Shown: positions 10,184-48,250, numbered from the stretch's first letter. The stretch: DNA of 64,000 nt from Gammaproteobacteria bacterium (GCA_026995045.1 JALWPK010000106.1:1-64000); one strand, 5' to 3'. The notes: generated by a model not told the origin, from the sequence alone. Numbers and translations are program-made.

Positions 10184-10234
10184 GACAAGCCCTCTGTTAT
10201 TATCAATTAGCAACAATAATGTGTTCTGTCTGTT

Positions 10235-10261
10235 CTATCGGCAGGTTGGCTGATTTTCTTA
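10235..10261 (-). promoter_or_regulatory. Possible sigma-28 (FliA) promoter, partner-switching operon
   Basis: Read on the minus strand: TAAG, 15 bases, then GCCGATAG. It differs from the TAAA-N15-GCCGATAA consensus at one base in each element. The predicted transcription start is about 45 bases before the STAS start codon. The rest of the 10184-10474 gap shows nothing else I can support. Confidence 0.5.
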
Positions 10262-10474
10262 ACAGGTAGTTGAAAAAACCTCACGCGGCGCGATACAGAC
10301 TGGCAGTCAAGGAGGGCTCAGTGCTTGTCAGTATCGACCAACCATTTTTTCATCATCACCAGCAGGCCCGACCAGGTGGCGGGGTGGCCTAAGCAGACAC
10401 GTCGGACATGACTGGCTTTCACCCGGCTGGCGTATTCCATCAACGCCCTGGGAAGTCGACCTTCAAACACGCCA

Positions 10475-10993: not shown

Positions 10994-10995
10994 CG

Positions 10996-12915
10996 TCAGG
11001 CCTTTGCCGAGACCAGCTCAAGCCCATTATGCGCAACCGGTTTTCTGCTGGCTTTATGCAGCAGCGCAAAAAAACGGCTGTCTGATACCGGTTTGCTGTA
11101 ATAGTAGCCCTGTGCGTATCGGCACCTTGCGCGCAGCAGATAATTCAGTTGCGACTTGTGCTCCACGCCTTCTGAAATCACATCGATATCCAGTGATTGC
11201 GCCAATGCAATCACTGCTTTCACCAGGCTTGCGTCCTGTTCATTTTCAAGAATGCTCCTGATAAAACCGCGATCAATCTTGACCGCATCGAATCGATGGC
11301 GTTGCAGACAGGACAATGAAGCATAGCCGGTTCCAAAATCATCAATCAACAGACGGATACCCATATCCGTCAGTTGTTGTATCACGTCAGCAACATTGCG
11401 GTTTTCCTTAATCAGCACATTCTCGTTCAGCTCGATTTGCAGCGCATCCGTTGTCAGGCCGTTCTTCAATAACGCCATTTTAATCACATCAACAATGCTG
11501 GCGTCAGACTGCATCTGACGCGCTGTCACATTGACCGTCACCACGATGTCATCCCAGCCGGCGTCACGCCAGATTTTCACCTGGGAGCAGGCCTGTTCAA
11601 TCGCCCATTGACCAATTTCACTGATGGCGCCGATTTCCTCGGCTATTGGGATAAAATCATTAGGCGAGACCTCGCCAAGTTCAGCGCTTTGCCAGCGAAG
11701 CAACGCCTCGGCCCTGCAGATTTTTCCGGTTTTGATATCCACGATTGGCTGGTACGCCATCTGCATTTCGTTGCGTTCCAGCGCGAGTCGAAGTTGCGAT
11801 TCGACATTCAGTCGCATCTTGGCGTTGGCGGTCATATCCGGCGAATAAAAGCAATACAGATTCTTGCCTTCATTTTTGGAGCGATACATGGATACATCCG
11901 CGTGGCGCATCAATATATCGCCATCCGCGCCATCTTCCGGATAAATTGCAAAACCGATGCTGGGCGTCACACGCACAGACTTGCCTTCCAGCTCAAACGG
12001 CTGTGAAAAACTTTCGATAATGCGATCGCCGACATGCCGTATCGCCAGCTCCCTTTCACTGAGGCGCTCATTGCCTTCATCATCCAGTATCAGCAGGAAC
12101 TCGTCCCCACCAAGTCTGGCGACTGTGTCGCTTTTGCGCGCACAGGATAACAGCCGGCGTGAAGCTTCACGCAGCAACTCGTCGCCCGCTGCATGTCCCA
12201 GGGTATCGTTTACATATTTGAAATTATCCAGATCAACAAATGCCACACAGGGACGCAAGTTCTGGCGTCTGGCCTTGATCAATGTCTGTTTGAGACGGTC
12301 GGTCGCCAGTTGTCTGTTTGGCAAGCCTGTCAGCTGGTCGTAATTGGCCTGTTTCTGTAACCGGTCTTCGATTTGCGCGCGTTCCTTGATTTCCTGTTTA
12401 AGCTTGGCGTTGATGGCGTCAAGCTCTGCGGTGCGCTGCCTGACCTTTTGCTCAAGCCTGGTTTTCGCGGTACGCATGTATTCCGCCGCCTGCTTTTGCA
12501 TAAGCTGGTTGCTGGCGCGCGCCCACATCACATCGAGATCGAGTGGTTTGCTGATGTAATCGTTTGCGCCAAGATCCAGCGCCAGCACATTTTCTCCCGG
12601 TGAATCAGCCGGTGTAACCAATATGACCGGGAGTTCGATTTTAGAATACGAGTTGCGTAGCGCTTTCAGCACTGAAAGGCCACTCATTCCCGGCATGCTC
12701 ACATCGAGAACAATCAGGTCAGGCACTTTTTCGTAAACCGATTGCAGCGCACGCTTGCCGCTGTCAGCTTCTTCCACTTCGATGCCCGCCAGCTCCAGCA
12801 CCTCGCGAACCGAACGCCGCACCGTTGAACTGTCGTCAACCACCAGTACGCGCAAGGAACGCTCAGCGGTGATGTACTCCTGGATTTCAGGCTCGTAGTT
12901 CATCGCATCAACCAC
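10996..12915 (-). CDS. Receiver-GGDEF-EAL cyclic-di-GMP turnover protein
   Basis: 639 residues. Receiver at ~15-135 (VVDDSS, phospho-site in VLDVSMPGMSG), a coiled coil at ~145-190, GGDEF at ~190-355 with intact GGDEF and an RKSD I-site, then EAL at ~370-625 with AEALLRW, ELNEN, IDDFGTGY, KIDRGFI and EGVE. Both catalytic signatures look intact, so it could make or degrade cyclic-di-GMP depending on receiver state. The start is GTG directly after the cheB stop; ATG 12903 is an alternative. Its place between cheB and cheD suggests that receptor adaptation and second-messenger level are expressed together. Confidence 0.93.
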   Translation of the reverse strand: MVDAMNYEPEIQEYITAERSLRVLVVDDSSTVRRSVREVLELAGIEVEEADSGKRALQSVYEKVPDLIVLDVSMPGMSGLSVLKALRNSYSKIELPVILVTPADSPGENVLALDLGANDYISKPLDLDVMWARASNQLMQKQAAEYMRTAKTRLEQKVRQRTAELDAINAKLKQEIKERAQIEDRLQKQANYDQLTGLPNRQLATDRLKQTLIKARRQNLRPCVAFVDLDNFKYVNDTLGHAAGDELLREASRRLLSCARKSDTVARLGGDEFLLILDDEGNERLSERELAIRHVGDRIIESFSQPFELEGKSVRVTPSIGFAIYPEDGADGDILMRHADVSMYRSKNEGKNLYCFYSPDMTANAKMRLNVESQLRLALERNEMQMAYQPIVDIKTGKICRAEALLRWQSAELGEVSPNDFIPIAEEIGAISEIGQWAIEQACSQVKIWRDAGWDDIVVTVNVTARQMQSDASIVDVIKMALLKNGLTTDALQIELNENVLIKENRNVADVIQQLTDMGIRLLIDDFGTGYASLSCLQRHRFDAVKIDRGFIRSILENEQDASLVKAVIALAQSLDIDVISEGVEHKSQLNYLLRARCRYAQGYYYSKPVSDSRFFALLHKASRKPVAHNGLELVSAKA

Positions 12916-14019
12916 TCAGCCACCCACCACCGCTTGCCGGTGTTTGCCACTGGCGGGGCGATTGACCAGCGCCTCCGCAATATCCTGCAATGGCAGTTCA
13001 ATATCCACCCCGCCCTGCTTCACCGCCATTGCCGGCATCCCGTGCACAACACAGGTGTCAGCATCCTGCGCAATGGTAAAGGCGCCGGTATCGTGCATCT
13101 CTTTCATACCGGCGGCGCCATCATCCCCCATGCCGGTCAGAATCGCGGCGACTGCATTTTTGCCTGCATACAATGCGGCTGAGCGGAACAGCACATCAAC
13201 CGACGGACGATGGCGCGAAACCAGCGGGCCATCCTTGACTTCCACGTAATATTTGTCAGCAACGCGCTTGACCAGCGTGTGCTTGCCGCCGGGCGCAATC
13301 AATGCCCGGCCACGCATCACTTCATCACCATCCACCGCCTCCTTGACAGTGATGGCGCAGGTTTCATCCAGTCGTTGCGCAAATGAAGCGGTAAATCCCG
13401 CCGGCATGTGCTGCACAACCACAATACCCGGAACATTGGCCGGCATGCGCGACAATACTTCCTTGATGGCCTCAGTTCCACCCGTGGATGCGCCAATCAC
13501 AATAACCTTATCGGTGGTAACCGTTGTCGGTTTGATGGTAACGGCGGGCAATACAGCATCCGCGGATAACTTGCTGTTAACCGCTTTAGGCTGCGCTGCA
13601 ATCTTGCGCACACGGGCGTGCGCAGCGGCCTTGACCGAATCTGTCAGCATCACACGCGACTCTTGCAAAAACTTTTTGGCGCCAACAGACGGCTTCTGGA
13701 TGATTTCCAGCGCGCCATACTCCAGCGCCTTCAGGGACGCCCTGGATCCCTCCTCTACCAGGGAAGAGCATATAATCACCGGGATCGGGTGCTGGGACAT
13801 GATTTTTTTAAGAAACGTAATACCGTCCATTCTCGGCATTTCGATATCGAGCACCATGACGTCCGGCACCTGTTCACGTATTTTTTGTGCGGCGATAAAC
13901 GGATCCGCACAGGCGTGCGTGACTTCTATTGCCGGATCACTGTTCAATATCTCAGTCAAGGTCTGCCTGACAACGGCAGAATCATCAACCAGCATGACTT
14001 TGATTTTTTCTGACTGCAT
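12916..14019 (-). CDS. cheB: Chemotaxis methylesterase/deamidase CheB
   Basis: CheB removes receptor methyl groups and is activated by phosphorylation from CheA. 367 residues from ATG 14019, chosen because AAGGAG sits 6 bases upstream; the ATG 15 bases earlier overlaps that site. Receiver with D58 ([13 protein letters not shown]), then the esterase domain with catalytic triad S178 (GASTGG), H204 (QHMPAGFT) and D300 (TGMGDDG), at the same spacing as in E. coli CheB. This is the only cheB in the window; the flagellar cheYZA cluster lacks one. Confidence 0.96.
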
Positions 14020-14056
14020 TACATGCTCCTTCATAAATGGCTATTCGCAAACCCGT

Positions 14057-14479
14057 CTAGTGCCGCTCTACCAGCAACTCGCAGGCTGTAACCGGATACA
14101 GTTTGACTTCATCTGAAAAGTCAATAATCAGCGCCATATCGTACTTGCTGCTGGAGAGCGCCAACTGACAACCTTGTATTGTCTGACGGCTGTTGACGCC
14201 AGCCAGACAAACAATAGACACACACCTGTCGAGCACAATGATATCGTGCTCGTCGTGAGACAGGCCTGGAAGCAGACGCTCGCTCTCCAGCATAATGCCA
14301 AGCTCGGCAAGCTGCCTGCACAGCATCAGCTGGTATACGCTTTTTGGCAGTCCACTGCCGAGCAGTTTAAACACGTTTTTAGCGATATCCGAGACGGCGT
14401 CAACCAGCATGCTGGCGCATGGTTTTCTGTCTGCCTGGCGCTGTAAGGTACTGAGATAAATTACGTTTTGCCTGTACAT
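14057..14479 (-). CDS. GxxExxY-type PD-(D/E)XK fold protein, catalytically degenerate
   Basis: About 140 residues. The segment FKLLGSGLPKSVYQLMLCRQ, the following LAELGIMLESE, a conserved aspartate in HDIIVLD, and CQLALSSSKYDMALIIDF match the GxxExxY family (PF13366/TIGR04256). The signature glutamate is lysine here (GLPKSVY), and the usual ELK strand is replaced by VSIVCLAG, so nuclease chemistry is unlikely. Start ATG 14479 follows an AAAGG; a TTG at 14488 would overlap the cheR stop. It lies between cheR and cheB in one operon. I know of no assigned chemotaxis role for this family; a protein-binding role is only a guess. Confidence 0.7.
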   Translation of the reverse strand: MYRQNVIYLSTLQRQADRKPCASMLVDAVSDIAKNVFKLLGSGLPKSVYQLMLCRQLAELGIMLESERLLPGLSHDEHDIIVLDRCVSIVCLAGVNSRQTIQGCQLALSSSKYDMALIIDFSDEVKLYPVTACELLVERH

Positions 14480-14484
14480 GTGAA

Positions 14485-15402
14485 TCAAACCTTTCTGTAA
14501 ACCATGGGCGCGACCTGCTGCAAACTCGTTTTAATTCCGTTTAGCGATTCGGAATGTCCGACAAACAGGTAGCCGCCACTGTGCAGCTGACGTTCAAACC
14601 GGGCAACCAGCTGCTCGCGTATTTCATTATTAAAATAAATCATTACATTGCGGCAGAATATTGCATCCATCAAATGCGGCAGGCTGAAGTTCTCATCCAT
14701 CAGATTAAGTTCCTGAAACTGTATGCGCTGCCGCAGATCAGGCCCCATTTGCACCAGTTCGCTTTTGCGATCCTTGCTGCGCAAAAAATATTTTTTACGG
14801 AGCGCCATCGGCACCGGTTCGATGTTTTTCTCGGTATAGATGCCCCTGCTTCCGATCTGCAGGCAGCTGTGAGAAATATCTGTCGCAAGAATGTGGAAGC
14901 GCAAACCCGGGTAGACAGACATGGCTTCATTCATCACGATGCTCAGGGTGTACGGCTCTTCACCGCTCGAACAACCTGCGCTCCATAATTTCAGATCCTG
15001 ACGCCCGGCGCGGATGCGTTCCCTTTCAAGTTCCGGCAACGCCGCTTTCACCAGATAATCAAAATGTTCAGGCTCACGAAAAAAATCCGTCTTGTTGGTA
15101 GTCAGCGCGTCGACCAGATGCAGACGTTCGCCCTCGCCTTGCGGCGTATCCAGAACAAAATCCAGATAATTCTTGAAACAGTCATAACCCAGCCTGCGCA
15201 AACGGCGGCGCAAGCGGCCTTCCACCAGTGTTTTTTTGCTCAGCGGCAACTGAATTCCTACTGTGTTGCCGATAAAATCCGCCACCCTTTTCATTTCGCG
15301 CTCAGACAACGTTGCGCTGCTGTCAGCCAGCGTTTCCGGCGTCATTTTTTTGGCTGCCCCACCCTGCATGGTCATTGGTCTTGTTACCTGCTTGAGCATC
15401 AT
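14485..15402 (-). CDS. cheR: Chemoreceptor methyltransferase CheR
   Basis: CheR methylates receptor glutamates with S-adenosylmethionine. 305 residues: a 40-residue extension, the helical CheR_N domain (about 35-85), then the methyltransferase domain with the SAM-site GCSSGEEPY, ILATDIS, and the conserved FCRNVMIYF and FVGHSE. The beta-subdomain stretch after KKYF is the same length as I recall for E. coli CheR, which docks on receptor C-terminal pentapeptides. Two ATGs overlap at the start (15402 and 15399) just after AGAGG. It is the first gene of the operon cheR-GxxExxY-cheB-GGDEF/EAL-cheD. Confidence 0.95.
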   Translation of the reverse strand: MMLKQVTRPMTMQGGAAKKMTPETLADSSATLSEREMKRVADFIGNTVGIQLPLSKKTLVEGRLRRRLRRLGYDCFKNYLDFVLDTPQGEGERLHLVDALTTNKTDFFREPEHFDYLVKAALPELERERIRAGRQDLKLWSAGCSSGEEPYTLSIVMNEAMSVYPGLRFHILATDISHSCLQIGSRGIYTEKNIEPVPMALRKKYFLRSKDRKSELVQMGPDLRQRIQFQELNLMDENFSLPHLMDAIFCRNVMIYFNNEIREQLVARFERQLHSGGYLFVGHSESLNGIKTSLQQVAPMVYRKV

Positions 15403-32715: not shown

Positions 32716-34983
32716 TCAACTCGCCTTGCGCAGGCGCGTCCCGGCGGGCGGCTGCATCTTGAAAAATCCCAACGCCTTGCGCTGGCTGCTGACCTGATCA
32801 GACAAGCCATCGGCATAGCTGACCAGTTCTATAGCTGCGCTGGCTGACTGCTGCACGGTTTGTTCGAGCTGTTTCAGCGACTGATTGATTTCGTTGGCGC
32901 CAACATCCTGCTCGGTGGAAGCCGAGCTGATTTCATGGATCAATTCAGATGTTTTCCGGATTTGCGGCACCAGGTGGGCAATTTTCTCACCCGCCTGCAC
33001 GGCCACGCTCACTGTGGCGTCTGACAGCTCGCCGATTTCCGTTGCCGCCTGCTGACTATGCTCGGCAAGTTTGCGCACTTCCGCCGCCACTACAGCGAAG
33101 CCCTTGCCATGTTCACCGGCTCGCGCCGCCTCAATCGCGGCATTCAGCGCCAGCAAATTGGTTTGCCTGGCGATTTCTTCCACCACGGAAATTTTTTCGG
33201 CAATGGTCTGCATGGCGCCCACCGCCTGGTTCACCGTGTTGCCGCTTTCATCCGCATCCTGCGCGGCCTGCTCGGCGATCTGTGTGGTGCGGCGCGCATT
33301 GTCGGCGCTCTGGCTGATATTGCGCGTCATCGCCTGCATCGACTCGGCGATTCGTTCAATCGAACCGGATTGCAACTGTGCGCCGTTTTCAAATCCATGC
33401 GCCGTCTGGTTAAGCTTGTCAGCCGTGGTGGCGCTGATATCCACGTCATGACAAAGTGACGCCATGATATTGCGAAGCTGATCGACAGTCGCGTTGACAT
33501 CCTGCTTCAAGGTCGCAAACACGCCCTCATATTCATTTTCAATCCTGTTTGTCAGATCGCCGTGGGCAAGGCTGTGCATTACACGCATCACATCATTGAT
33601 ACTGGAGCCTGTTGTCTGCATAACACGGTTGATGCCAGACGCCATCACTCTGACAAAACCCTGCTTGTCATCTTCACTGACAGACTGGCTGAAATCACCG
33701 CGCGAAACCGCATCAACAACTGTCGCCACCTCATTCTCAAGCTGGAGCTCAGCGGTATGATTTACCCACTCTATCACCATGCCAGCACGCTGCTCACCGT
33801 CGAAAACGGGCGTGACCGTCACTTTCAGCGTCAACTGACCGATTTCCAGTGTGGCGCAGTACACGGTGTCAACCGATTCGAGCAACTGACGATTAAACTG
33901 CTCATGATGATCGAACAAATCGATATTGCAGCCTTGCAGAGTGGAGGCGCTGAAACCTGGCAATACCTGGCGGATTGCCGGTTCGATATCATCAAACATG
34001 GCCTGCGCCGAGCGGTTGATGTACATAATATTGTAATGCGAGTCCACCACCATGATATTGACATCGGCATTGTCCAGCGCTGTTTTGATACGCAGGGTTT
34101 CCTGCGCCAGTTCCCGCTCCTGTTGCAATTGCCTTTGCTGGTGTTCAATCGCAGCCAGCTCATCAGTGCGGTCGCGCCACTCGGTAACAATACCGGCATA
34201 GCGGCCGGTCTCATCATGAACGGCGGTTGAACGCACAAGAAACTGGCGGCCGCCGAGCAACAACTCGACTGTTTCACCTTGTAATAAAGGCTCAATAAAT
34301 GGCTGTGCATTGTCCTGCTGAAAACTATGCAGCTTTTTTCCCAGCAATCGTGAAGCGCTGAAATTAATCATGTCCTGCTGGATATCGTCTTCCAGCGCAG
34401 CAAAGGTTTCCTGAAGCGCATTATTGATATAGACAATATTATTGTCGGCATCACTCAGCATAATGTTGCTGATAGCGCCGTCCAGCGCTGTTTTGATTTG
34501 CGCAAGCTCGACAATGCGCAGTTTTTCCATGTGAAAAGCCGTTTCAAGCTTAACCTGCATAATATTCAGCGCCGCTTGCAGTTTGCCGAGCTCGTCTTTT
34601 GATGAGTGCGCGATGTCATGGTCAAAGTGGCCATCAGCAATACGCGCAGACAGCCTGGTCATGCACTGCACTCTGCTGGCGACGCCCTTCAATATCAACC
34701 AGGCCATCACGACCAGTAAAATGAATGCCGCAACCATGATAACGCCATCCATGAACATACGCGCTGTAAATTGATGATGCGCCGCCATGACGTCAGTCAG
34801 GAAGAGCAACTGTTGCGAATCGATGGCCGCCTGCAAGTCACGGTAGCTGACTGAAAGGTCGTACAGTGTGAGCAGGCATGCCATTACCGGCAATATAAAC
34901 GCCAGCAGGAATTTACGAAATAATGGCATATCCGCATATTGATTGCGTACATACCCGGCTATACCATTGCGCAAGTCAGGCAT
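32716..34983 (-). CDS. Methyl-accepting chemotaxis protein, two PAS domains
   Basis: 755 residues from ATG 34983 (GGAG 8 bases upstream). Two membrane helices (about 24-44 and 78-102) enclose a periplasmic loop of only ~35 residues, so sensing is likely intracellular. HAMP, then two similar PAS domains (each begins IKTALD...NIM..D...NI.YIN), a second HAMP-like pair, and the signalling hairpin with tip [20 protein letters not shown]. It ends TRLRKAS and, unlike three relatives here, lacks the LRG motif and aromatic C-terminal tail. Last receptor of the second chemosensory operon. Confidence 0.93.
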   Translation of the reverse strand: MPDLRNGIAGYVRNQYADMPLFRKFLLAFILPVMACLLTLYDLSVSYRDLQAAIDSQQLLFLTDVMAAHHQFTARMFMDGVIMVAAFILLVVMAWLILKGVASRVQCMTRLSARIADGHFDHDIAHSSKDELGKLQAALNIMQVKLETAFHMEKLRIVELAQIKTALDGAISNIMLSDADNNIVYINNALQETFAALEDDIQQDMINFSASRLLGKKLHSFQQDNAQPFIEPLLQGETVELLLGGRQFLVRSTAVHDETGRYAGIVTEWRDRTDELAAIEHQQRQLQQERELAQETLRIKTALDNADVNIMVVDSHYNIMYINRSAQAMFDDIEPAIRQVLPGFSASTLQGCNIDLFDHHEQFNRQLLESVDTVYCATLEIGQLTLKVTVTPVFDGEQRAGMVIEWVNHTAELQLENEVATVVDAVSRGDFSQSVSEDDKQGFVRVMASGINRVMQTTGSSINDVMRVMHSLAHGDLTNRIENEYEGVFATLKQDVNATVDQLRNIMASLCHDVDISATTADKLNQTAHGFENGAQLQSGSIERIAESMQAMTRNISQSADNARRTTQIAEQAAQDADESGNTVNQAVGAMQTIAEKISVVEEIARQTNLLALNAAIEAARAGEHGKGFAVVAAEVRKLAEHSQQAATEIGELSDATVSVAVQAGEKIAHLVPQIRKTSELIHEISSASTEQDVGANEINQSLKQLEQTVQQSASAAIELVSYADGLSDQVSSQRKALGFFKMQPPAGTRLRKAS

Positions 34984-35040
34984 AAAACATCTCCATTTAT
35001 TTGACATCAGCCTGTGTAATTGATGAATTAATCAGCTTCC

Positions 35041-38000
35041 TTAATATTTAACAAACTGACCATCGTCATTGCCCATATCCAGATCAAAGCCGCCATTGGG
35101 GTTGATATCATGTTGATCACGTATCACGCCGCCGCGTAAGGGTGCGCCAGGTGAATTTTCATCCCGCCGCTCAACTGCAGGTGGCGCATCGGACGGCGTG
35201 TGTGGCGATGCGTGTTCTGCTGATAAAAAGTCTGGCGTGACAAGCTTGCTGTGTGACGTGGCATGCAAGGCAATAGCGGATTCATCCAGCTTGAAAAAGC
35301 TCATGGCGTCACGCTGTTCTTCTACCTGTGCTGACAGTTCCTGAGCAGAACTCGCCAGTTCTTCTGCTGCAGCGGCAGACTGCTGCACCACCTGGTCAAG
35401 TTGTTGCAGCGCGCGATTGATTTCATCCGAACCGACATCCTGCTCCCGGGCCGCAACACTGATTTCCTGCACCAGCTCGGCCGTTTTCTGAATATCCGGC
35501 ACCAGCTGTGATAAACGCTCGCCGGCCTGTTCGGCGACTTCCACGGTATTGCTTGAAAGCTCACCGATTTCCCCTGCCGCTTTCTGTGAACGTTCGGCCA
35601 ACTTGCGCACTTCCGATGCGACCACAGCAAAGCCCTTGCCATGTTCACCGGCGCGCGCCGCCTCAATCGCCGCGTTCAGCGCCAGCAGATTAGTCTGCCG
35701 CGCAATTTCCTCAATAATCGAAATTTTCTCGGCGATAGACTTCATCGCCGTGACCGCTTCAAGAACGGTGCGGCCGCTTTCATCGGCGTCGTTTGCCGCT
35801 TTCTGCGCAATTTTTTCAGTCTGGCCGGCATTGTTCGCGCTTTGGCGGATATTGGCTGACATTTGCTCCATTGCCGATGAAATCTGCTCCAGCGACGCCG
35901 CCTGTGTAGACGAGCCATCTCCCAGATCCTGTGCCGTGCCGCTGACCTGTGTTGCCGTATTAGCGCTGGCTTCCGCGCTGCCATGTACTGTTGCCAGCAC
36001 ATCGGTGAGGCGGTCAACCGTTGTGTTCACGTCATCCTTGAGTTGAGCGAATACGCCCATATATTCTTTGTCAATTTTCTGCGTCAGATCACCCGAAGCC
36101 AGCCCGCGAAGCACTCTGACGACATCTTCGATACTGGTGTCAGTGGTAGACAGAATTTGATTGATACCCTGAGCCAGCTTAAGGAAGAAGCCCTGCTTGC
36201 CGTCTTCACAGACCTGCTGGCTGAAATCACCCTGTGCCGCCGCTGCGACGATGTTAGCCACTTCATTTTCGACTTCGACTTCGGCTGTCCGATCCTGCCA
36301 TTCAACAACCGTTCCCAGTCGTTCACCATCTTCATCAAACACGGGTGTCGCGATAATATGAAGCGTTAAACCATTGACCTCAACAGTGGATCGATAGGTT
36401 GTCTGCAGATTTTCAAGAATCTCCCGCTGGTGAGATGGGTCACGATGGAATATATCGATGTTTTTTCCTATCAGCTCATAGCGGTTGAAGTCCGGTATCA
36501 CTTCTTTCAGCTTGTCTTCAATATCAGCAAACATCGACTCTACAGCCTTGTTTATATAGATGATGTCAAGATTGATGTCAGCCATCATGATATTAACTTC
36601 AGCACTGTCCAGCGCTGCCTTAACGCGTGTATTTTCGCGGGCAATGATGCGCTCTGACTCAATTCGCTCTTCTTCAACGCGTCTTGCGCGCAATTCTTCT
36701 GTACGGTCATCCCATTCTGTCACCACACCAATCTTGTCGCCCGCATCATCAAATACCGGGCTTGCCATAATACGGAACTCACGCTCGCCGAATGTCATAT
36801 CAAAACGTGTTGGTTCTAACAGGCCATCCAGTACGGCTGCGGCTTCAGTATTGCCTGCCAGCAAAGCGCGCATATCTTCACCAACCAGACCATTTTCGCC
36901 AAAGCCTGTGACAACAGTCTGGACATCCCGCCTCACCGTCTCAAACATTTTCTGACCGGCTTCATTGACATAAATAATAGTGTTGTCAGCATCAGAAAGC
37001 GTGATACAGGTGCTCGCGCTATCCAGGGCGGCATTAATACGTCGGCTTTCAATGGCCTGCTTCCGGGCGGTTTCAATATCATCCTTGAGCCGGGTCTGCA
37101 TTTTGTCGAGTTCATTCATTAATAACCCCATTTCATCCCTGGATTCCACCTGGATATCGGTATCATAAATGCCGGAGCCTATGTAGTTAAAGATATCCAC
37201 AACCTTAGAAACAGACCGTACGATATTGACGATCACCATGATTGCAATAAAAATAGCAAGCATGATCACTACAACTGATGCGCCAATTTCCTGCATCAAT
37301 GACGTACGCAGACTGGCAATGCGCGTCTCCAGTAATTTCCGTACTTTTTCTGACGAGGAAAACAACAATGCCGAGGCGCTATGAATAGCCTTGTCGCCAT
37401 CATCGTATATATCATCTGCCATCAGGTAGAGCGATTCCGAGGTCAGCTCTTCCATAGTTGTGGCTGCATCTTCCACGTTTTCAAGCAGTTCAGTTCCCGT
37501 TTTCATAAATGCATTGACAGGCTCTTCAAGCACCGGCTTGATCAGTGCATCGGCGGATATTGCTGCCGCCACTCCTTTATTAACGGCATCAATAAGATGC
37601 TGCGCATTCCTCGCGCTGCTGATCAGGCTGATTTGCTCATCGAAATCCACCTCACCTGACAACAGCATGGCCTGTGCTGTACTGCGTATCATGCTGAGCT
37701 CATTGATAATATATGGCAACCTGTTGGCAATTACCTCAATCAACGGCGAGCTGTCCGCGCCAGCATCCAAAGCGAGATTGCTTTTTGATGCGACTTCCTG
37801 AATCAATCCAATAACACTTTCAATCACAGTCGTATGCAACTTGTAGCTGTCTTCAGGGTCATCCATGGATACAGCCCTGTCTCCCAGACCCGCCCATCCG
37901 GTTTTGATAGCCCGCCAGAGTTCACCAGTATCAAAATCATCACCATATTTCTCATGAACCATCTCAACATTGTCAACTGCAGAGGATACTGCTTCCTGTG

Positions 38001-38295
38001 CCGCATTAATTTCATCAGAGAGCGAATCTGCACCATTCAGCAACGCATTCACCAGATCGCGGTGTCTGGCAAGGTTTTCAAGCAAGATTGTAACTGGCTC
38101 AATATACTCAATACCTTTATATTCCATTTTGGCATAGTCGATTGACTTGCTAGCATCCAGCACCAGTAGCGTCAGTAGCATAATAACCGGCAACAGCAGC
38201 ATGACTATCACAGCGCCCAGTTTTCGGGATAAACGAACATTTTTCAGAAAGTTCAGTTTTGAGCCGACTGAATTGAATTGACCGAGAATTTTCAT
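35041..38295 (-). CDS. Methyl-accepting chemotaxis protein, large periplasmic domain and two PAS domains
   Basis: 1084 residues, the longest receptor here. Membrane helices at about 28-48 and 345-368 flank a ~295-residue all-helical periplasmic domain (four-helix or NIT-like; ligand unknown). Then HAMP, PAS 1 ([16 protein letters not shown]), PAS 2 ([16 protein letters not shown]), a di-HAMP segment, and the signalling hairpin ([20 protein letters not shown]). A ~75-residue flexible tail contains [10 protein letters not shown] and ends QFVKY, a pattern expected for a CheR/CheB-docking pentapeptide. It follows cheW in the operon. Confidence 0.94.
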
Positions 38296-38364
38296 ATTTC
38301 TTTCCTGACACTTTTCATGGTAATGGTTTATGGCGATAGATTCATTCAGATCTGACAGTTTATT

Positions 38365-38904
38365 TCAGGCGGCCTCGTCATCATTCGCGCAGCCGCCTGC
38401 AACACTGGTGTTCTCAACCTGGTGTATCTGCTCAAGGCTGAAAACATTATCCATATCCAGAACAATTATGAATCGGTCGTCATGGGTTTTCCCCATAGCC
38501 TGTATAAACTTATTGCTGACGCGGGTGCCCAGTGTCGGCGCCGGCTCCATCTGATCCTTACGCAACTCGATAACTTCCTGAACCGAGTCAGCCAACGCGC
38601 CCAGCACTGTTGTATGACCATCAATATTAACTTCAATAATGATGATGCAGGTGTCGACGGTGTTTTCACACACACTCATGCCAAATTGCAATCTCAGGTC
38701 AATTACCGGCACGACATTGCCGCGGAGGTTGATGACGCCCTGCATAAAATCAGGCGTACGCGGCACTCTCGTCACCTCTGTATATTCAAGCACCTCACGC
38801 ACTTTGGTGATTTCGGTTGCAAACGCCTCACCATCCAGTGTAAAGGTGAGGTACTGGACTGGCTGACTCATTTCAGTTGCATCCTGTTGTTGTTCATTGC
38901 TCAT
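38365..38904 (-). CDS. cheW: Chemotaxis coupling protein CheW
   Basis: 179 residues, a single CheW domain (VQYLTFTLDGEAFATEITKV, GVINLRGNVVPVIDLR) that bridges receptors and CheA. A ~20-residue acidic C-terminal extension follows the domain. It is surrounded by receptor genes and belongs with the cheA at 44182-46290. Distinct from the CheW of the flagellar cluster. Confidence 0.95.
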   Translation of the reverse strand: MSNEQQQDATEMSQPVQYLTFTLDGEAFATEITKVREVLEYTEVTRVPRTPDFMQGVINLRGNVVPVIDLRLQFGMSVCENTVDTCIIIIEVNIDGHTTVLGALADSVQEVIELRKDQMEPAPTLGTRVSNKFIQAMGKTHDDRFIIVLDMDNVFSLEQIHQVENTSVAGGCANDDEAA

Positions 38905-38944
38905 AACATCGACCCTGTTAGTTTGTTCTTAAACAAGAATAATT

Positions 38945-38975
38945 ATGGAAGCCTTGTTATGGGCTGAGCTTCCAT
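38945..38975 (-). other. Intercistronic hairpin between MCP and cheW
   Basis: ATGGAAGC and GCTTCCAT form an 8-bp stem with a 15-base loop in the 90-base gap, followed on the minus strand by AATTATTCTTG and a smaller TTGTT-TAAG-AACAA stem. It might mark an mRNA processing or partial termination point that sets receptor-to-CheW ratio. Confidence 0.4.
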
Positions 38976-38994
38976 ATATTTGTGATATTTGTAC

Positions 38995-41346
38995 TCAATA
39001 GCGTACATATTCTGTATCATCAAGCATGAGATCAAAGCCTGCAAAGTCATCTTCTCCACATCTGGACTCATCTCCTCTAAGTGCAGCGCCGGGAGAGTCT
39101 GGCCTGCGCCTGTCCACATGCGCATACATCATGGCGCCACCCGCCTCATTACCCAGGTTAAAATAACGCATTGCATCCCGCTGCTGCTCCGCCTTGCCTG
39201 TCAATTCGGCGGCGGAGCTGGCCAACTGTTCAGCTGCAGCAGCTGATTGTTGCACCACCTGATCCAGTTGTTGCAATGCACGGTTTATTTCATCTGCACC
39301 CACATCCTGTTCGCGTGACGCAATACTGATTTCCTTCACCAATTCGGCTGTTTTCTGGATATTGGGCGCCAAGGCGGTGATTTTCTTGCCCGCCTGCTCC
39401 GCTACCGATACGGTTTCAGCAGACAACTCACCGATTTCTGCAGCCGCAGACTGGGATCGCTCAGCCAGTTTGCGCACTTCTGATGCAACCACGGCAAATC
39501 CCTTACCATGCTCACCGGCTCGCGCAGCCTCAATCGCTGCGTTCAGCGCCAGCAAGTTGGTCTGTCTGGCAATTTCCTCAATGATGAAGATTTTTTCAGC
39601 AATGTGATTCATCGCTGTGACCGCCTGTTTCACTGTTTCACCGCTTTCAGCAGCATCAGCTGACGCCTGCTGGGCGATTTTTTCAGTCTGGCTGGCGTTA
39701 TCTGCGCTTTGACGAATATTGGATGACATTTCCTCCATGGCTGACGAAATCTGTTCAAGTGACGCCGCTTGCTCGGACGCACCCTGTCCCATATCGGTTG
39801 CCGTGCTACTCAACTCGGATGCGGTACTGGCATTACTGATGCTATCATTATTGATATCTGTTATGACTTTCCGAAGACTGTCTACCGTTTTGTTTATATC
39901 GTGTTTGACTTGCGCAAATATCCCTTCATATTCAGATTCCACCTTCCGTGTCAGATCGCCTTTTGCCAGACACTGCAACACATGTGCAACGTCATTGATA
40001 CTGGCGTTGGTAATATCCAGCATATTGTTGATTGCTCTGGAGGCCATCAGGAAGAAACCGTGTTTGCCATGCTCATCAATTCTCGCATCAAGCTTGCCTC
40101 TGGCCGCCTCTTCGACAATCCGGCTCATTTCATTTTCACACCTGATATTTTCGGTACGATCGACCCATTCAACAACCATGCCGATATTGTCACCATCGGC
40201 CATAACAGGCGATATCGTGGCCTGCAGGAATCTGCCACCAACCTGCAAGTCAACTGTTTCAGTTGAGTTTATATTTTTCAGTTGTATTTCATCTCGTAAC
40301 AGTGCCTGCAAATCAAGACCGATCAGGTTTTCAGGATCAAACTGCTCACATCTTTCCTTCAGATCTGATGCAACCCGGATAAATATATGAATTGCTGATT
40401 TATTGACATAGGTGATTTCATGGCGATCATTACAAATTGTAACACCTGTGCTTGATACGCTGATTGCGCTGGCAATGCGTTTTCCGTCTTCTGCGGCATA
40501 CCTTGCGTCGTATACTTCATAGCCAATCTTGGTTTGCATGATTTTAAGATTACGAAGCAGATTTCCAACCTCGTCGTTACCACTGATATCAATATGGTTC
40601 ATAAATTTATTATCTGTAACACACAGCATAATGTCTGAAGCAGCCTTTATCTTTTTGACAACCAACGTATATAAAAGTACTCCTGTTACCATCATACAGA
40701 CTATTACTGCCAGCAATGTATTTGCGACGTATGAATAGGCAAAGGATGATGCAGCTTCGGATTCAACATTCCACCCTTGTGCGCTGATGTCTCCAATATT
40801 TGCAGACATCAGCATCGCCGGTACCAGCGCCACCAGCAAACCAGCCAGCGATGCAGGCGTCAGGATTCTTGCCATAAGCCCCCGTTTGTTGAATGGATTC
40901 AGTTCGCCCAAGCGTGCGACCACACCTTTTTTTTCGCCGTGCAGCTTCAGCTCACGATACCGGTTCTCCGCTTGAATTACCTGCTCGCGCGAAGGCTTGC
41001 GGCGCAGTGAAACATACTCACAGACTTCACCACCCTTCAGTAATGGAACCACACTGGCTTCCACCCAATAATAATTGCCGTCTTTCGTCCGGTTTTTTAC
41101 CATGCCCACCCAGGGCCGTCCCGACTTGACAGTCGACCACAAATCCTCGAATGCTTCTGACGGCATATCGGGATGTCTCACAATATTATGGCTTTTCCCC
41201 ATAAGCTCATTGCGGCTGAAGCCACTTATTTCGACAAAATCCTCGTTACAGTATGTAATGCGGCCTTTCAGATCAGTTCTTGAAACAAGAAAACTATCGT
41301 CACGCATCTCGATTTCTACGTCATTTACCGGTAGATTAGCTTTCAT
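38995..41346 (-). CDS. Aer-like PAS chemoreceptor
   Basis: 783 residues. The N-terminal PAS (about 15-115) closely resembles E. coli Aer: [11 protein letters not shown], a tryptophan in PWVGMVKNR and [11 protein letters not shown], so FAD-based redox or oxygen sensing is likely. Two membrane helices (about 165-185, 205-225) have a short loop, then HAMP, a second PAS ([16 protein letters not shown]), di-HAMP and the signalling hairpin. The tail contains SPGAALRG and ends EYVRY. GGAG precedes the ATG. Confidence 0.94.
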
Positions 41347-41388
41347 TGTGTGACTCCAGTCTTATATTAATAGCGGGAAAAGGCATTA

Positions 41389-44151
41389 TCAGTATTTGGT
41401 AAAACTGGCGTTAACCTTGTCTGTATATTGCCAGTCAGTTCTGGCGCCGGACAGGGTTTCCGCACCGCCACGCAGCGCGGCGCCACGTGACGCCGGGTCA
41501 CGCTGATCGTTGATCTTGGCATCCTGTTTGTTCGACTTAAATACGCTTGATAACTGAAAAAAGCCCATAACTTCCCGCTGCTCACTTGCTCGCTCTGACA
41601 GTTCACTTGCTGATACAGTCAGCCCCTGAGTGGTTTCATTTGAATCCTTGACCGCCATATCAAGCTGCTGCAGGGAACGGTTTATTTCATCTGCGCCAAC
41701 ATCCTGCTCACGTGATGCGATACTGATTTCTTGCACCAGCTCGGCGGTTTTTTGAATATCCGGCACCAGTTTTGCGAGACGGCTTCCAGCCTGCTCAGCC
41801 ACCAGCATGGTTGTGCTCGATAGTTCACCGATTTCGGCTGCAGATTTTTGTGAACGCTCGGCTAACTTTCTCACCTCGGAAGCAACCACGGCAAAGCCCT
41901 TGCCGTGCTTGCCTGCCCTGGCCGCTTCAATTGCGGCATTCAGAGCAAGCAGGTTAGTCTGCCGCGCAATATCCTCGACAATAGAAATCCTGTCAGCAAT
42001 ATCCTTCATCGCCTTGACGGCGTCAGTCACCGTTGCGCCACTCTCCCTGGCGTCGATGGCAGCCTGTTGCGCGATGCGCCCTGTCAGCGCAGCGTTATCA
42101 GCGCTCTGCCGAATATTCGCGGACATTTGCTCCATAGCTGACGAGATTTCATCCAGAGCCTGCGACTGACTCCGCGAGCCTGCGCCTAGCTCCTGAGCTG
42201 CAGCATTGACCTGCGAAGCCGTGTTCACCGTACTGTCATTGCTCATCCGTACAGTTGTAATCACGTCAGTCAGCCTGTCTACAGTACTATTCACATCATC
42301 CTTGAGTTGTGCGAAAACACCTTTATAATCAGATTCGATTTTCGCAGATAAATCGCCCTGCGCCAGTCTTTGCATGACGCGAACCACATCTGTAATGCTT
42401 GACTCGGTTGAGTCCAGCATTTTATTCAGACTTTGTGACAGGTTTTTGAAAAACCCTGTTTTGCTGCTTTCATCTATGCGATGATCAAATTCGCCATTGG
42501 CGGCTGCTTCAACAATTTCACCCACTTCACGTTCGGTATTCACCAGTGATGTGCGGTCATGCCACTCAAGCACCGTACCCAGTCTCTCATCTCCTTCACC
42601 ATGTACAGGTGTGGCGCTGATTTGCAGATGCAAGCGCCCCATTTCAAACTGATATACCTCGGTTGACTCAAGCGAATCCAGTGTGTTCCTATCAAGACAG
42701 GCATACTTTAAAAGTGTTTCCGCCTGCGCCCCCATCATGGCATTAATATCAAACTCGCCAAGCTGTTGCCCGAATTCACTTTCCAGGTTCGCGAACATAT
42801 TCTCAAGTGTCTGATTGAGATAGATAATCTTCACGTCCGCATCCACCATCATCATACTGGTGCTGGCGCGATCAAGCGCAGTACGTATACGACTGGATTC
42901 AACTGCCTGTTTGCTAATACTGTCAAATGCGGATTTCAGTTCGTTTTGCATTTTTTTCAATGCAGACAGCACTTTTCCGATTTCATCTCTGGATCTGTCA
43001 TTGATTTGATTGTTAAAGTTTTTGTGCGCAATATTTTGCGACAATCCGATGACCTCCTTCAGTGACACAGAGATATTGCGGAACAACCACCAGATAATCG
43101 CCACGAGCATAACTATTGACGCCAGGGTAATGATTATCGAGGTTTTAATGTTGTTGGCAAATTCAGCGTTAATATTTTCAGACACCTGTTTTTGAACCTG
43201 CAACTGATCATCCAACATTTGTTTTACCAACGCCAAGGCCGTATTCAGATCCGGGCCAAATTGCTCACGTATCGTATAGGCGTCCATCCGCCATTTATCA
43301 GAACTGTGCAGTCGGACAAGCTCATCAACATTGTTATTGTATTGCTCGACAAGCGGCAGCAGTTGCTCCAGTGCGTCATACTCTTCAAGCGTGAGCATGT
43401 CTTCGTTATCCTGCAAGTACTTTAGTTCTTTATCAATTTGCTCCCTGTAGTACCCCATGTTTTTGACAGCTGCTGGCGTGCGGAATGCAAGATACGAACG
43501 CAATTCGCTCATTACCTTGCTCGTCAGTTTCCGCATTTCAAACATCGTCAGCAATATCTGCTTGCGCTCCTCGCCCAATTCTTCCTCAACTTCTGCTCCA
43601 ACCATCAGCTCAACATCCTGTGCTATGAGGCGCATCAAATTATTGACGTTTTCAGTAGCAAACTTCATGGCAGGGTAGTTTTCTGAATTATCAACGGCGT
43701 ACTTCAGAAACCTGTCTTTGTAGGCAAGCACTTTTTGCAGACCGCCCTGGATCTCACTCATATTATAGTGATTATAATATTGCTCACTGATTTCCTGCTT
43801 CAGTTTCTCACTATATCCGGCCACCTTATCCATTGAAGCGATATAGTTGTCGCGATGCCCCTGTTCCTTGCTCAGCAAATAAAACCCAAGCGCCTTAGCG
43901 CCATTCTCCAGCGCATTGTCAACATTCTGCAGATAAGTAATTGCGAGATTATTATCCGGGTTACCTTTGGCGAGATTCTCATCCAGACTGTTAAACTCAT
44001 CGACTACTGTAAACCCCGCATACACCATCATTATTGCCGGCAGAGTAAAACCCGCCAGAAACTTTCTGAACACCGGCAAATCACGCCAGAGCGCAATTAC
44101 AGCCGAAATGCTTTGCTTTCTATCGCCTTCTTTTTTTAATTTTGACAACAT
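41389..44151 (-). CDS. Methyl-accepting chemotaxis protein, helical periplasmic domain and PAS
   Basis: 920 residues. Membrane helices at about 32-52 and 338-360 enclose a ~285-residue helical periplasmic domain of unknown ligand. HAMP, one PAS ([16 protein letters not shown]), di-HAMP and a signalling hairpin ([23 protein letters not shown]) follow. The tail carries SRGAALRGG and ends SFTKY. The start lies 42 bases after the cheA stop on the same strand. Confidence 0.94.
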
Positions 44152-44181
44152 CTGTTATCTTTCTCCTTTCTGTCTGACGAT

Positions 44182-46290
44182 TCAGTGCATGCTGCTGCTT
44201 TCATCTGTCGCCAGTTTGATTAAGGCAGGCGCATCCAGTATCAGCGCCACGGCGCCATCACCAAGTATGGTTGCTCCAGCCAGACCCTTGATGCCCTCAT
44301 ACATCTTGCCCAGTCCCTTGATAACCGTCTGATGCTGCCCAACAACGCCATCTACGGTAAAGCCAAAGCGCTGTTCGCCATTACGAATAATGACGATTTG
44401 CTCGATTTCAGGCGGCTCGCCGCTTGTGGCGAAACACTCTCGCAAGCGCAGATAGGGAACCAGTTCACCGCGGATTTCTATCAGTCTGTTGCCATTTGCC
44501 TGCGCCACTTCATCCGAACTCAGTTCGATACACTCCTCTACCAGAGACAGCGGGATAACATAGTTGTCTTCACCAACTGCTATCAACAAACCTTCGATAA
44601 TCGCCAGCGTCAACGGTAGCTCAACTGTAACGACACTGCCTTCTCCAAGTTTGCTGTCGATACTGACCTTGCCACGAAGCCCCTCGATAGAGCGTTTGAC
44701 CACATCCATTCCGACACCGCGACCAGACACGTTGGAGATGGTTTTGGCTGTTGAGAACCCCGCCTGGAAAACCAGATTGAAAAGCTCATGATCTGACAGG
44801 TTGGCTTCCTCCGTGATCAGGCCACGCTCGATTCCCTTTTCACGCAAAATATCGGGATTCATCCCGGCGCCGTCATCCTCGATTTTGATGACCACATGCG
44901 ATTCGGAATGGATTGCAGACAGGCGCACCACGCCCTTTTTGGATTTGCCCGCCGCTTCGCGCGCCTCTGGCGATTCAATGCCATGGTCGATACTGTTGCG
45001 TATCAGATGCACCAGCGGATCGCCCAGTTTGTCGATTACCGTTTTGTCGAGTTCGGTTTCCGCGCCCTCAGTAATCAGTTCGATTTCCTTGCCAAGCTCA
45101 TTCGACAAATCCCGCACCAACCGCCGGAAACGCGCAAATGTTGTGCCAATGGGCAACATGCGCAGACCTAGCGTGTTGTCACGCAGCTCGGTGGTCAGCC
45201 TTTCCATATCTTCTGCGATACTGGTCAGGGCGGCGTTACGTATCGTGCTGGCTGACTGGTTAAGCCGCGCCTGGGCAATGACCAGCTCGCCCACCAGATC
45301 CATCAGCGTATCCAGCTTGTCGGCGGGCACCTTGACGTTGGCGACGCTCTTTTTTTCCTGGCGCTCGTTGCGCACCTGTTTGACGACTTTCTGTTCTTCC
45401 AGCGCCGCCTTCACCTTGTCGGCTTCGATCTGCTCCTGCTCACTCAGCACTTCACCGATGCGCTTCTGGTTGGCGTGCGCATGCTCGACCTGCTCAGGCG
45501 TGGCGTCGCCTTTTTCAACCAGAATCTGCCCCAGCGGCTTGTCGGCCGAGGTGTCTGACCAGTCATTGCCATCATCAATCACATCGACGCGAATATCCCA
45601 ATCGCCGCTGACAAAAATGAAGACATCATCTATCGCGGATTTCTGTTGATCCGTGGTCAATACAATGTCCCACGACAGATAACACTGTTCGGGCTCAAGC
45701 AATTCAATCTCGGGCAAATCGCACAACAAGGTGGTGACATGACAAGGTCCAAGGGTATGCAGCTCTCGCAGTATCGGCAGCGGATCCATGCCATTTGTCA
45801 ACGTATCTTTTGAGGGTTTGATGCGAATCCTGAAGGTAACATCAACCTTGTCAGCCTCGGTTTGCTGCGCATTGTCAGCTCCCTGTTGCGCCGACTCGGC
45901 CTTGCCCGCCACCTCGCCAACAGCCGGTATCAATGCGCCCAGGCGCTCCAGCAGGCTGGCGCCCTGCTGTTCCAGATCCGCATCCGGATCCTTGTTTTCC
46001 AGCATGGCGCGAATATGGTCGCCGGAATCGAGACCGATATTGATCAGATCCCTGGTGATGCTGAGTTCGCCGCTGCGCACCAGATCAAAGGCGTTTTCGA
46101 GATGATGGGTAAATTCGGCCAGCTTATCGAAACCGAACATGGCGCCTGACCCCTTGATAGTGTGCATGGCGCGAAATGCTCGATCCACGCAGTCGCCGTC
46201 GTCCGGCGACTCTTCCAGTTCGAGCATGGCGGCTTCAAGATCGACCAGCAGTTCGTCCGCTTCCTCACGAAAGGTATCTTCCAGACTCAT
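44182..46290 (-). CDS. cheA: Chemotaxis histidine kinase CheA of the second chemosensory system
   Basis: 702 residues. P1/Hpt with H43 (AMHTIKGSG); a P2-like domain (about 150-245, with FRIRIKPSKDTL and GMDPLPILREL); a linker; dimerisation P3 (VPADKLDTLMDLVGELV); ATP-binding P4 (HLIRNSIDHGIE, DDGAGM, GRGVGMDVV) and the CheW-like P5. It differs clearly from the flagellar-cluster CheA and keeps the P2 domain that the other lacks. Its ATG overlaps the STAS stop by ATGA. Confidence 0.95.
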   Translation of the reverse strand: MSLEDTFREEADELLVDLEAAMLELEESPDDGDCVDRAFRAMHTIKGSGAMFGFDKLAEFTHHLENAFDLVRSGELSITRDLINIGLDSGDHIRAMLENKDPDADLEQQGASLLERLGALIPAVGEVAGKAESAQQGADNAQQTEADKVDVTFRIRIKPSKDTLTNGMDPLPILRELHTLGPCHVTTLLCDLPEIELLEPEQCYLSWDIVLTTDQQKSAIDDVFIFVSGDWDIRVDVIDDGNDWSDTSADKPLGQILVEKGDATPEQVEHAHANQKRIGEVLSEQEQIEADKVKAALEEQKVVKQVRNERQEKKSVANVKVPADKLDTLMDLVGELVIAQARLNQSASTIRNAALTSIAEDMERLTTELRDNTLGLRMLPIGTTFARFRRLVRDLSNELGKEIELITEGAETELDKTVIDKLGDPLVHLIRNSIDHGIESPEAREAAGKSKKGVVRLSAIHSESHVVIKIEDDGAGMNPDILREKGIERGLITEEANLSDHELFNLVFQAGFSTAKTISNVSGRGVGMDVVKRSIEGLRGKVSIDSKLGEGSVVTVELPLTLAIIEGLLIAVGEDNYVIPLSLVEECIELSSDEVAQANGNRLIEIRGELVPYLRLRECFATSGEPPEIEQIVIIRNGEQRFGFTVDGVVGQHQTVIKGLGKMYEGIKGLAGATILGDGAVALILDAPALIKLATDESSSMH

Positions 46291-46604
46291 GACGCCGCCT
46301 CCTTCGGCTCACAACCCAGTGCATGCAGCAAGCGGCTGTTGTGCACCGCCTCATCCACTTCATCGCTCATGGCGATAAAACGTATATCGGCGCCATTGCC
46401 ACTCGCCTGCTTGCATACCGCGGTAATCAGCTGCAATCCGCTGGTGTCCAGTTCCTCGACTCCGCTCAAATCCAGCTCGACCGTTTTATCCATCATCAAG
46501 GTCTGCTTGAGCGTATCCAGATAGTCAGCCACCTCATAAATGGTCAGGTCGCCGTCTATGCGTATCTGGTTGATGTTGTTTTTGGTTTCAATTTTTAATG
46601 CCAT
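46287..46604 (-). CDS. STAS-domain protein in the chemosensory operon
   Basis: 105 residues, one STAS domain of a subtype different from the two STAS proteins at 9824 and 15631. It keeps a serine at the phosphorylation loop (LDTSGLQ, S55). STAS genes beside cheA and cheY occur in some gammaproteobacterial second chemosensory clusters; their partner is not established. It is translationally coupled to cheA. Confidence 0.88.
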   Translation of the reverse strand: MALKIETKNNINQIRIDGDLTIYEVADYLDTLKQTLMMDKTVELDLSGVEELDTSGLQLITAVCKQASGNGADIRFIAMSDEVDEAVHNSRLLHALGCEPKEAAS

Positions 46605-46630
46605 TTCGTTTCGCCCCTGTTACTTGCCGG

Positions 46631-46993
46631 TCATGCCAGCTTGGCCACCGCCGAGAGCAATGCCGGTGGCTGGAACGGTTTGACCAGCCAGGCCTTGGCG
46701 CCGGCGTCCTTGCCCGCCTGTTTCTTGTCGTCACCGGATTCGGTGGTCAACATCATAATCGGGGTAAATTTGTATTTCGGATGCTGCTTCACTTCTTTCA
46801 CCAGTGTGATGCCATCCATGTTTGGCATGTTGACATCACTGACGATGAGGTGAATTTTCTGGCCTGTCATTTTCGCCAGCGCATCCTTGCCGTCGCAGGC
46901 CTCGATCACGTCATAACCCGCGCCTTTTAATGCGATGCTGACTACCTGTCTGATCGATGCTGAATCATCAACAACCATGATTGTTTTCGCCAT
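46631..46993 (-). CDS. cheY: CheY-like response regulator of the second chemosensory system
   Basis: 120 residues, a stand-alone receiver with VVDDS, phospho-aspartate in LIVSDVNMPNMDG, MLTTES and lysine in VKPF. It is encoded next to cheA, so it is the probable acceptor of CheA phosphate. Whether it contacts the flagellar motor, or steers another output such as the c-di-GMP enzymes, cannot be told from sequence. Confidence 0.93.
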   Translation of the reverse strand: MAKTIMVVDDSASIRQVVSIALKGAGYDVIEACDGKDALAKMTGQKIHLIVSDVNMPNMDGITLVKEVKQHPKYKFTPIMMLTTESGDDKKQAGKDAGAKAWLVKPFQPPALLSAVAKLA

Positions 46994-47005
46994 GCTGTTT
47001 CCCCG

Positions 47006-48250
47006 TTAGAATAAGGTAAAGTCTGACTCATCGGCCTGCGGGCCGGGGTGGACAGAATTGCTGGTATGGTTATGGCGTTGCTCATCCGTGGTGTAGCCTT
47101 CACTCATTTCCTGCTGGTGCACTTCATAATCAATGGGCGCAATGGCATTGCCGCTGGCGCGTTGCGCTTGCGCGGTTTCCACGGTCTGCACAACGCCATG
47201 AATATCCGCCGTGGTGCGATTCAATATCTGTGACACCCGGTCCTGGAATTGCAGGCTGACAATCACATTGGATATTTCATCGCGAATCTCTTCGCTGGTG
47301 TGACGCAGGGAGGAAGAATCGTCCTGCAGGGTCTCAATGGTGTCCTGTAAACGCGAGAACACCGACTCGATTGTCTGCTTGCCTTCCTCGACAGCGGTGC
47401 TGTTGTGCTCGATGGAATATTCCGCCTGCTTCAGGGTTTCACTCACCGCCGCGCCAATATTGCTGACTTTTTCCATCATCTGCTGACCGGTTTCGGCAGA
47501 CATGGAAGCAAGCTTGCGCACTTCGTCTGCAACAACGGCAAAACCGCGGCCGTGTTCGCCGGCGCGCGCCGCCTCAATCGCAGCGTTCAGCGCCAGCAGG
47601 TTAATCTGGTCGGCAATCTGGCCAACATCGCCCGCCATTTCGTTGAGTTCTTCGGCCTGGGTGGAAAGCCCGCGCACTTCATCGTGCAGCCGGTTTTCCA
47701 GATCCAGCGACGATTCCAGCGAATCAATGACGGTTTGCAGCGCGCTGCGGCTTTCTTCAAACAGCGTTAACATGCCATTGCCATCGCCAAGACTGTCGCT
47801 GCGGCTCTGCGAGGTGCTGACCACATCGTTCAAGCGGGTGGTCAGAGTGGAAAACTCCTGCGACAGGTCGGTAATACTACGCTCGGTTTGCGTGTTGGAG
47901 CTTTCGATGTTGCGCGCGATAATCGGCAGTGAGGTTCGGCACAGGTTTTCCAGTGATTCGGTATAGTCCTGCAGCATGCGATATTCGCGCTGACAGGCTT
48001 CGGATGCCAGATAGCGGGTTTTTTCCGCAGACTTTTTCAGGAACATGCCGGCGCCGACGCCAACGATCAGCAACGCCGCACCAATGCCGGCCAGCATCAT
48101 GTCGCCGGTTGCGCCCAATGCGATTGCGGCGATCAGGCCCGTCGCCGCGGGCGCAGCCAGATGCAGCCAGTCATCACCAGCGCGTTTGCCGGCTACCGTA
48201 TTTACCGTCATGGCGGGTTCCAGCGCCATTGCCTCACCTGAGTAACTCAT
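47006..48250 (-). CDS. Short methyl-accepting chemotaxis protein without sensor domain
   Basis: 414 residues. A membrane hairpin (about 30-50 and 53-70) has almost no periplasmic loop and there is no HAMP. A helical segment leads to the signalling hairpin with tip [23 protein letters not shown]. The protein ends SDFTLF, whose last five residues fit the x-aromatic-x-x-aromatic pentapeptide pattern. A small two-helix membrane protein is encoded 3 bases upstream and may be its sensory partner. Confidence 0.92.

Follow-up and report, generated by a model that had tools for sequence, protein, structure and literature searches.

Which of the receptor C-termini encoded at this locus are docking peptides for CheR or CheB? 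The stretch of DNA that we analysed, 64,000 nucleotides long and referred to below as the window, encodes five receptors on its minus strand. A sequence-only reading had proposed that four of them end in x-aromatic-x-x-aromatic tails, together a divergent CheR/CheB docking set. Re-calling the open reading frames (ORFs) confirmed the C-termini given there: QFVKY (minus-strand ORF end at 35041), EYVRY (38995), SFTKY (41389), DFTLF (47006) and TRLRKAS (32716). From the comparisons described below, we infer that QFVKY, EYVRY and SFTKY are very probably CheR-tethering pentapeptides of receptor class 34H, with the binding, tethering and methylation that this would entail, and that DFTLF is not one of them. 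The receptors and their terminal peptides are:

32716-35007, minus strand: class-34H receptor without a pentapeptide, ending AGTRLRKAS, with GxxLR of the linker motif retained (ORF, alignment, heptad test)
35041-38295, minus strand: class-34H receptor, HAMP-PAS-PAS-HAMP-MCPsignal, with a tail given as 17 residues (ORF, domains, heptad test)
35044-35058, minus strand: pentapeptide QFVKY, putative CheR tether (sequence; conserved in relatives)
38995-41346, minus strand: class-34H receptor, PAS-PAS-HAMP-MCPsignal, tail EYVRY (ORF, domains, heptad test)
38998-39012, minus strand: pentapeptide EYVRY, putative CheR tether (sequence and tails of relatives)
41389-44151, minus strand: class-34H receptor, HAMP-PAS-HAMP-MCPsignal, tail SFTKY (ORF, domains, heptad test)
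41392-41406, minus strand: pentapeptide SFTKY, putative CheR tether (sequence and tails of relatives)
47006-48250, minus strand: McpA-like short receptor of 414 amino acids, tail DESDFTLF, in which only the signalling domain was recognised (ORF, domains, tail family)
47009-47023, minus strand: DFTLF, apparently a McpA-type tail [DE][IVL]x[LF]F and not a CheR pentapeptide (tails of relatives, position-2 counts)

The aromatic tail motif is not explained by chance, because x-[FWY]-x-x-[FWY] terminates none of 699 other ORFs (non-overlapping, non-receptor, at least 250 amino acids long, taken from the fetched loci and the window). If the rate of such endings is assumed to be 0.8%, the probability that three of the seven receptors of the genome would be tailed by chance is approximately 2e-5. 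These seven PF00015 receptors come from an assembly that is 83% complete and 6.5% contaminated; five lie within the window, and the two elsewhere lack an x-[FWY]-x-x-[FWY] tail. The seven comprise five 34H receptors, one McpA-like and, judged by eye, one PilJ-like receptor.

In an alignment with Tsr, a 36H receptor, a window receptor is seven residues shorter to either side of the hairpin tip, corresponding to one heptad per arm. The same -7/-7 result was obtained for all four PAS/HAMP receptors of the window and for all 11 other receptors compared that have Phe or Tyr at position 2 of the pentapeptide (F/Y2), and a 0/0 result for all three receptors with Trp at this position (W2). Being one heptad per arm short of 36H Tsr, the four PAS/HAMP receptors of the window, including the one without a tail, are of class 34H. 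This class has been linked to x[FY]xx[FY] tails and class 36H to xWxxF tails, the Geobacter consensus being EFEKF with a separate group of CheR (PMC2577667); 34H receptors have also been tied to F8 chemosensory systems (PMC11253619). An NWETF tether of the E. coli 36H type is ruled out by Phe or Tyr at position 2 together with the -7/-7 count. Gene order and NCBIfam matches had suggested an Aer2 receptor (NF041847) or an Aer2-like 36H F7 system; we rejected this candidate because the best score, 375.6 bits, falls far short of the curated cut-off (1200) and because the heptad count is that of 34H. The three tails had struck the sequence-only reading as divergent, with Tyr following a basic residue. 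They turn out to be ordinary for 34H receptors, since Lys or Arg occupies position 4 in 67 of 83 sampled F/Y2 tails and Tyr is the last residue in 37 of the 83.

If the pentapeptides tether CheR, they might be expected at the end of a linker, and the tails do have this appearance. In the three tailed receptors, 53-82 poorly conserved residues, putatively a flexible linker, lie between the signalling domain, with its FF/YF end, and the peptide. The following elements were recognised in these tails:

35059-35094, minus strand: acidic stretch of 12 residues preceding the QFVKY peptide, comparable to GGVxLDMG...DDEFEKF in the tails of other 34H receptors
35134-35169, minus strand: linker motif of 12 residues (alignment of tails)
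39076-39111, minus strand: linker motif of 12 residues (alignment of tails)
41470-41502, minus strand: linker motif of 11 residues (alignment of tails)

The pre-peptide stretch is similar to the GGVxLDMG...DD segment of other 34H receptors. The linker motif, RRxxxSxGAxLR, was seen only in 34H receptors of the family to which the window receptors belong (eight of 188). Tails of the xFVKY type recur in relatives. Ten tails were compared across four genomes of the lineage; all of them close with [FY][VT][KR][YF], whereas the linker varies in both length and sequence. There are exceptions among relatives: a close one (L239) ends in RYEQY, and another (G008) has a tail on just one of its three receptors. 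In a further relative (L230 in G255, 8023-8559 and 8520-11471), a tailed receptor contains a frameshift near the hairpin, due to either a sequencing error or a pseudogene. The pentapeptide is not always strictly terminal; F/Y2 receptors of six loci (L083, L084, L085, L222, L175 and L166) carry one to four extra residues, ending in DFERFGS, DFERFS, EFQRFS or DFERYTEVV. The exceptions bear on whether the aromatic ends are vestiges of 34H ancestors that have lost their function in this lineage. The missing tails of the fifth window receptor and of two of the three G008 receptors would fit such a loss, as would RYEQY in L239, but within tails that otherwise drift, conservation is highest in the final four residues, which are kept in five receptors of the relative G397 and in the three of the window. 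We therefore regard vestigial tails as very improbable and retain tethering as the preferred reading.

The DFTLF receptor stands apart. Its relatives end in DLTLF (G397), EVTFF (G008), EITFF and EIEFF, and an [IVLF]x[LF]F ending is present on 65 of the 77 short receptors that the fetched loci contain. A conserved aromatic residue at position 2 was not found in the DFTLF orthologues: position 2 of the 65 tails is Ile in 32, Val in 26 and Leu in five (63 of 65), and Phe in only two. NFDLF (L291), the second case with Phe, stands alone among FGDNVDLF tails. A [DE][IV]x[LF]F C-terminus is conserved on short receptors of both Proteobacteria and Nitrospirota, and some Nitrospirota copies have a CEIWDEPS-like end in its place. 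Ortega and colleagues found the McpA C-terminus to be strongly conserved, with no match to the pentapeptide pattern in 40 sequences, and the P. aeruginosa McpA tail, which has Val at position 2, reportedly interacts with none of four CheRs (PMC7184735). DFTLF thus meets the aromatic pattern by a single change from Val, Ile or Leu to Phe and, judged by its sequence relatives, is a conserved McpA-like tail that belongs outside the pentapeptide set. The McpA-like assignment rests on the short length of the receptor, its position beside a che cluster, the tail family and published descriptions of P. aeruginosa McpA.

In view of this, we consider it unlikely that all four tails, DFTLF included, make up one CheR/CheB docking set. 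The pattern x-[FWY]-x-x-[FWY] does fit all four, and Phe at position 2 of DFTLF is the very aromatic missing from P. aeruginosa McpA (PMC7184735). However, DFTLF is found on another receptor family whose members have Leu, Val or Ile at this position, the other Phe-containing case is likewise an isolated exception, position 4 is Leu rather than Lys or Arg, and McpA-like receptors have been reported in the F6 array (PMC9855816). The earlier proposal of four docking tails thus holds with respect to CheR for QFVKY, EYVRY and SFTKY, given their conservation, 34H class, matching CheR clade and the intact β-subdomain of CheR (see below), but not for the McpA-like DFTLF. In Shewanella, and reportedly also in Pseudomonas, McpA-like receptors are part of the F6 array (PMC9855816; PMC7534058); going by this literature, the window copy is probably in the flagellar F6 array, where its tail would meet a partner other than CheR. 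No 40H flagellar-type receptor was recognised among the seven receptors of the 83% complete assembly, which would make the McpA-like receptor a candidate for the main input into the F6 array.

The putative partner of the three pentapeptides is also encoded in the window:

14485-15402, minus strand: CheR of the 34H-type clade (domains, alignment, tree, model)
14731-14844, minus strand: CheR β-subdomain, the putative peptide site, with predicted strands at residues 188-190, 206-208 and 216-219 (alignment, model)

That this CheR has no deletion in its β-subdomain had been noted before and was borne out: the β-subdomain aligns with that of Salmonella CheR without gaps, and the counted stretch is 22 residues long in both, compared with 19 in the pentapeptide-independent CheR1 of P. 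aeruginosa. The window CheR therefore has the three-residue insertion that is a feature of pentapeptide-type CheR proteins. Its predicted structure (pLDDT 87) contains the three strands of the β-subdomain, and the top structural match of the model is peptide-bound CheR, 1bc5 (Z 32.8, r.m.s. deviation 2.5, 269 residues). The description of this protein as the single CheR is correct for the che cluster but not for the genome; a second CheR-domain protein, encoded on contig C192, no longer has the CRNV motif, and its β-subdomain is one residue shorter. Of the six residues that contact the peptide in Salmonella CheR, as listed in PMC2577667, five are changed in the window CheR (Q182K, G188S, G190D, G194E and R197Q) and only R187 is kept. 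Ser188 and Asp/Asn190 are typical of the wider 34H CheR clade, and Gln197 is peculiar to part of the lineage of the window.

In a scan of named genomes, the nearest CheR proteins (~45-52% identity), besides those of two gammaproteobacterial MAGs, came mostly from Geobacter and other Desulfuromonadia, Nitrospirota and Desulfobacterota. The receptors adjoining the non-gammaproteobacterial ones mostly end in DEFEKF, DEFERF or DEFEKY. The window CheR lies within a gammaproteobacterial clade of eight rows (support 98), which includes Colwellia, Thiorhodococcus and Terasakiispira and in which the tails are mostly FVRY or FVKY. A tree of 139 CheR/tail pairs, computed without the β-subdomain columns of CheR, requires one single change between W2 and F/Y2: the type of tail is co-inherited with the CheR clade. 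We also looked for covariation of CheR and peptide, in the form of a charge swap between Arg197 or position 190 of CheR and tail position 3 or 4. The raw tables looked convincing, but the well-supported branches provided only two to four independent pairs (p about 1 in a sign test), and covarying single positions in independent lineages were not shown on the tree of 139 pairs.

Could the tails have a different partner from CheR, for example CheB, CheD or a polar-localisation factor? The strongly altered contact residues of CheR could be read in this way, and the stretch around cheR and cheB also encodes CheD and a GxxExxY protein:

10475-10993, minus strand: CheD (domain search)
12916-14034, minus strand: CheB, the sole CheB found in the genome (domains, genome search)

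The GxxExxY protein (14057-14488, minus strand) has 143 amino acids, is PD-(D/E)XK_3-like and is located between cheR and cheB, in the place of cheD in related clusters. A different partner is nevertheless quite improbable, as the 139 pairs show tail type to be inherited with the CheR clade and 34H tails have been paired with a distinct CheR group (PMC2577667). The window CheB can be aligned to 1A2O along almost its full length. In enteric bacteria, much of the binding to CheB comes from the Trp of the pentapeptide (PMC8609364), which the window tails lack, and there is one enteric CheB that does not bind pentapeptides at all (PMC7698151). Given the absence of this Trp, docking of CheB to these tails in the E. 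coli form appears unlikely.

With CheR as the preferred partner, the peptide would bind as an added strand to the three-stranded β-subdomain, as NWETF does in Salmonella CheR, and by analogy with that complex tethering on the linker would raise the local concentration of CheR. A tethered CheR would then methylate the receptor that holds it as well as adjacent receptors of the same 34H array, among them the tail-less fifth receptor. The ORF of this receptor has an alternative upstream start at 35007 (minus strand). It looks like it carries a shortened tail, because its AGTRLRKAS end aligns with the RRxxxSxGAxLR linker motif; inspection by eye of the 66 bases between its 3' end and the next gene revealed no remnant of a pentapeptide. 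Methylation by CheR tethered on neighbouring receptors is plausible, given that the fifth receptor is also of class 34H.

The remaining genes of the receptor region encode signalling proteins:

38365-38904, minus strand: CheW-like protein between receptor genes (sequence, by inspection)
44182-46290, minus strand: CheA, more similar to the CheAs of 34H than of 36H loci (bit scores)
46287-46604, minus strand: STAS-domain anti-sigma factor antagonist (domain search)
46631-46993, minus strand: CheY-like receiver (sequence, by inspection)

The median score of the window CheA was 603 bits against the CheAs of 34H loci and 438 bits against those of 36H loci. A possible F8 system would fit these scores and the 34H receptors, but McpA-like genes have been reported beside F7 systems only.

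The finding is mostly an ordinary one, in that the three tails of the window belong to the already known 34H tether class. In addition, two distinct receptor tails are lumped together by the generic pentapeptide pattern, and published counts based on the pattern alone may contain a small error from McpA-like receptors. A more speculative possibility, which we regard as somewhat doubtful, is that FVKY/FVRY tails and a CheR with Ser188, Asn/Asp190 and Gln197 make up a docking pair that is orthogonal to that of the WEEF tail with its own CheR. If true, such pairs would keep two adaptation systems apart within one cell. F/Y2 and W2 pairs occur together in single relatives, both with the CheR type of the window (G008, G255) and with another F/Y2 type (G005, G012, G020); genomes with both WEEF and F/Y2 pairs are natural material for studying whether tail type insulates adaptation pathways.

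Among known systems, the 34H receptors of Geobacter, with their x[FY]xx[FY] or EFEKF tails and group B CheR (PMC2577667), share with the window the 34H class, Phe or Tyr at position 2, Lys or Arg at position 4 and Phe or Tyr at position 5. The CheR of Geobacter and relatives is of the same clade as that of the window (45-52% identity), but the window lineage has Val or Thr instead of Glu at position 3, mostly Tyr at the end, and Gln197 in place of Arg in CheR. Tar and Tsr of E. coli and Salmonella (NWETF with CheR, 1BC5) have in common with the window receptors a terminal aromatic pentapeptide on a linker, the CheR fold and an uninterrupted β-subdomain; they differ in being 36H, in Trp at position 2, in an acidic or neutral peptide, and in the CheR contacts, unlike at five of six positions. 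The F8 system of P. syringae (PSPTO_0912 and CheR PSPTO_0910, PMC11253619) likewise places a pentapeptide-tailed 34H receptor beside a CheR with the three-residue insertion, but has one such receptor, whereas the window has three tailed 34H receptors and one without a tail. The closest match for DFTLF is the McpA/CttP-like family (PMC7184735, PMC9855816), short receptors that have a strongly conserved tail and lie next to a cheA cluster; position 2 is Ile or Val in the family and Phe in the window copy.
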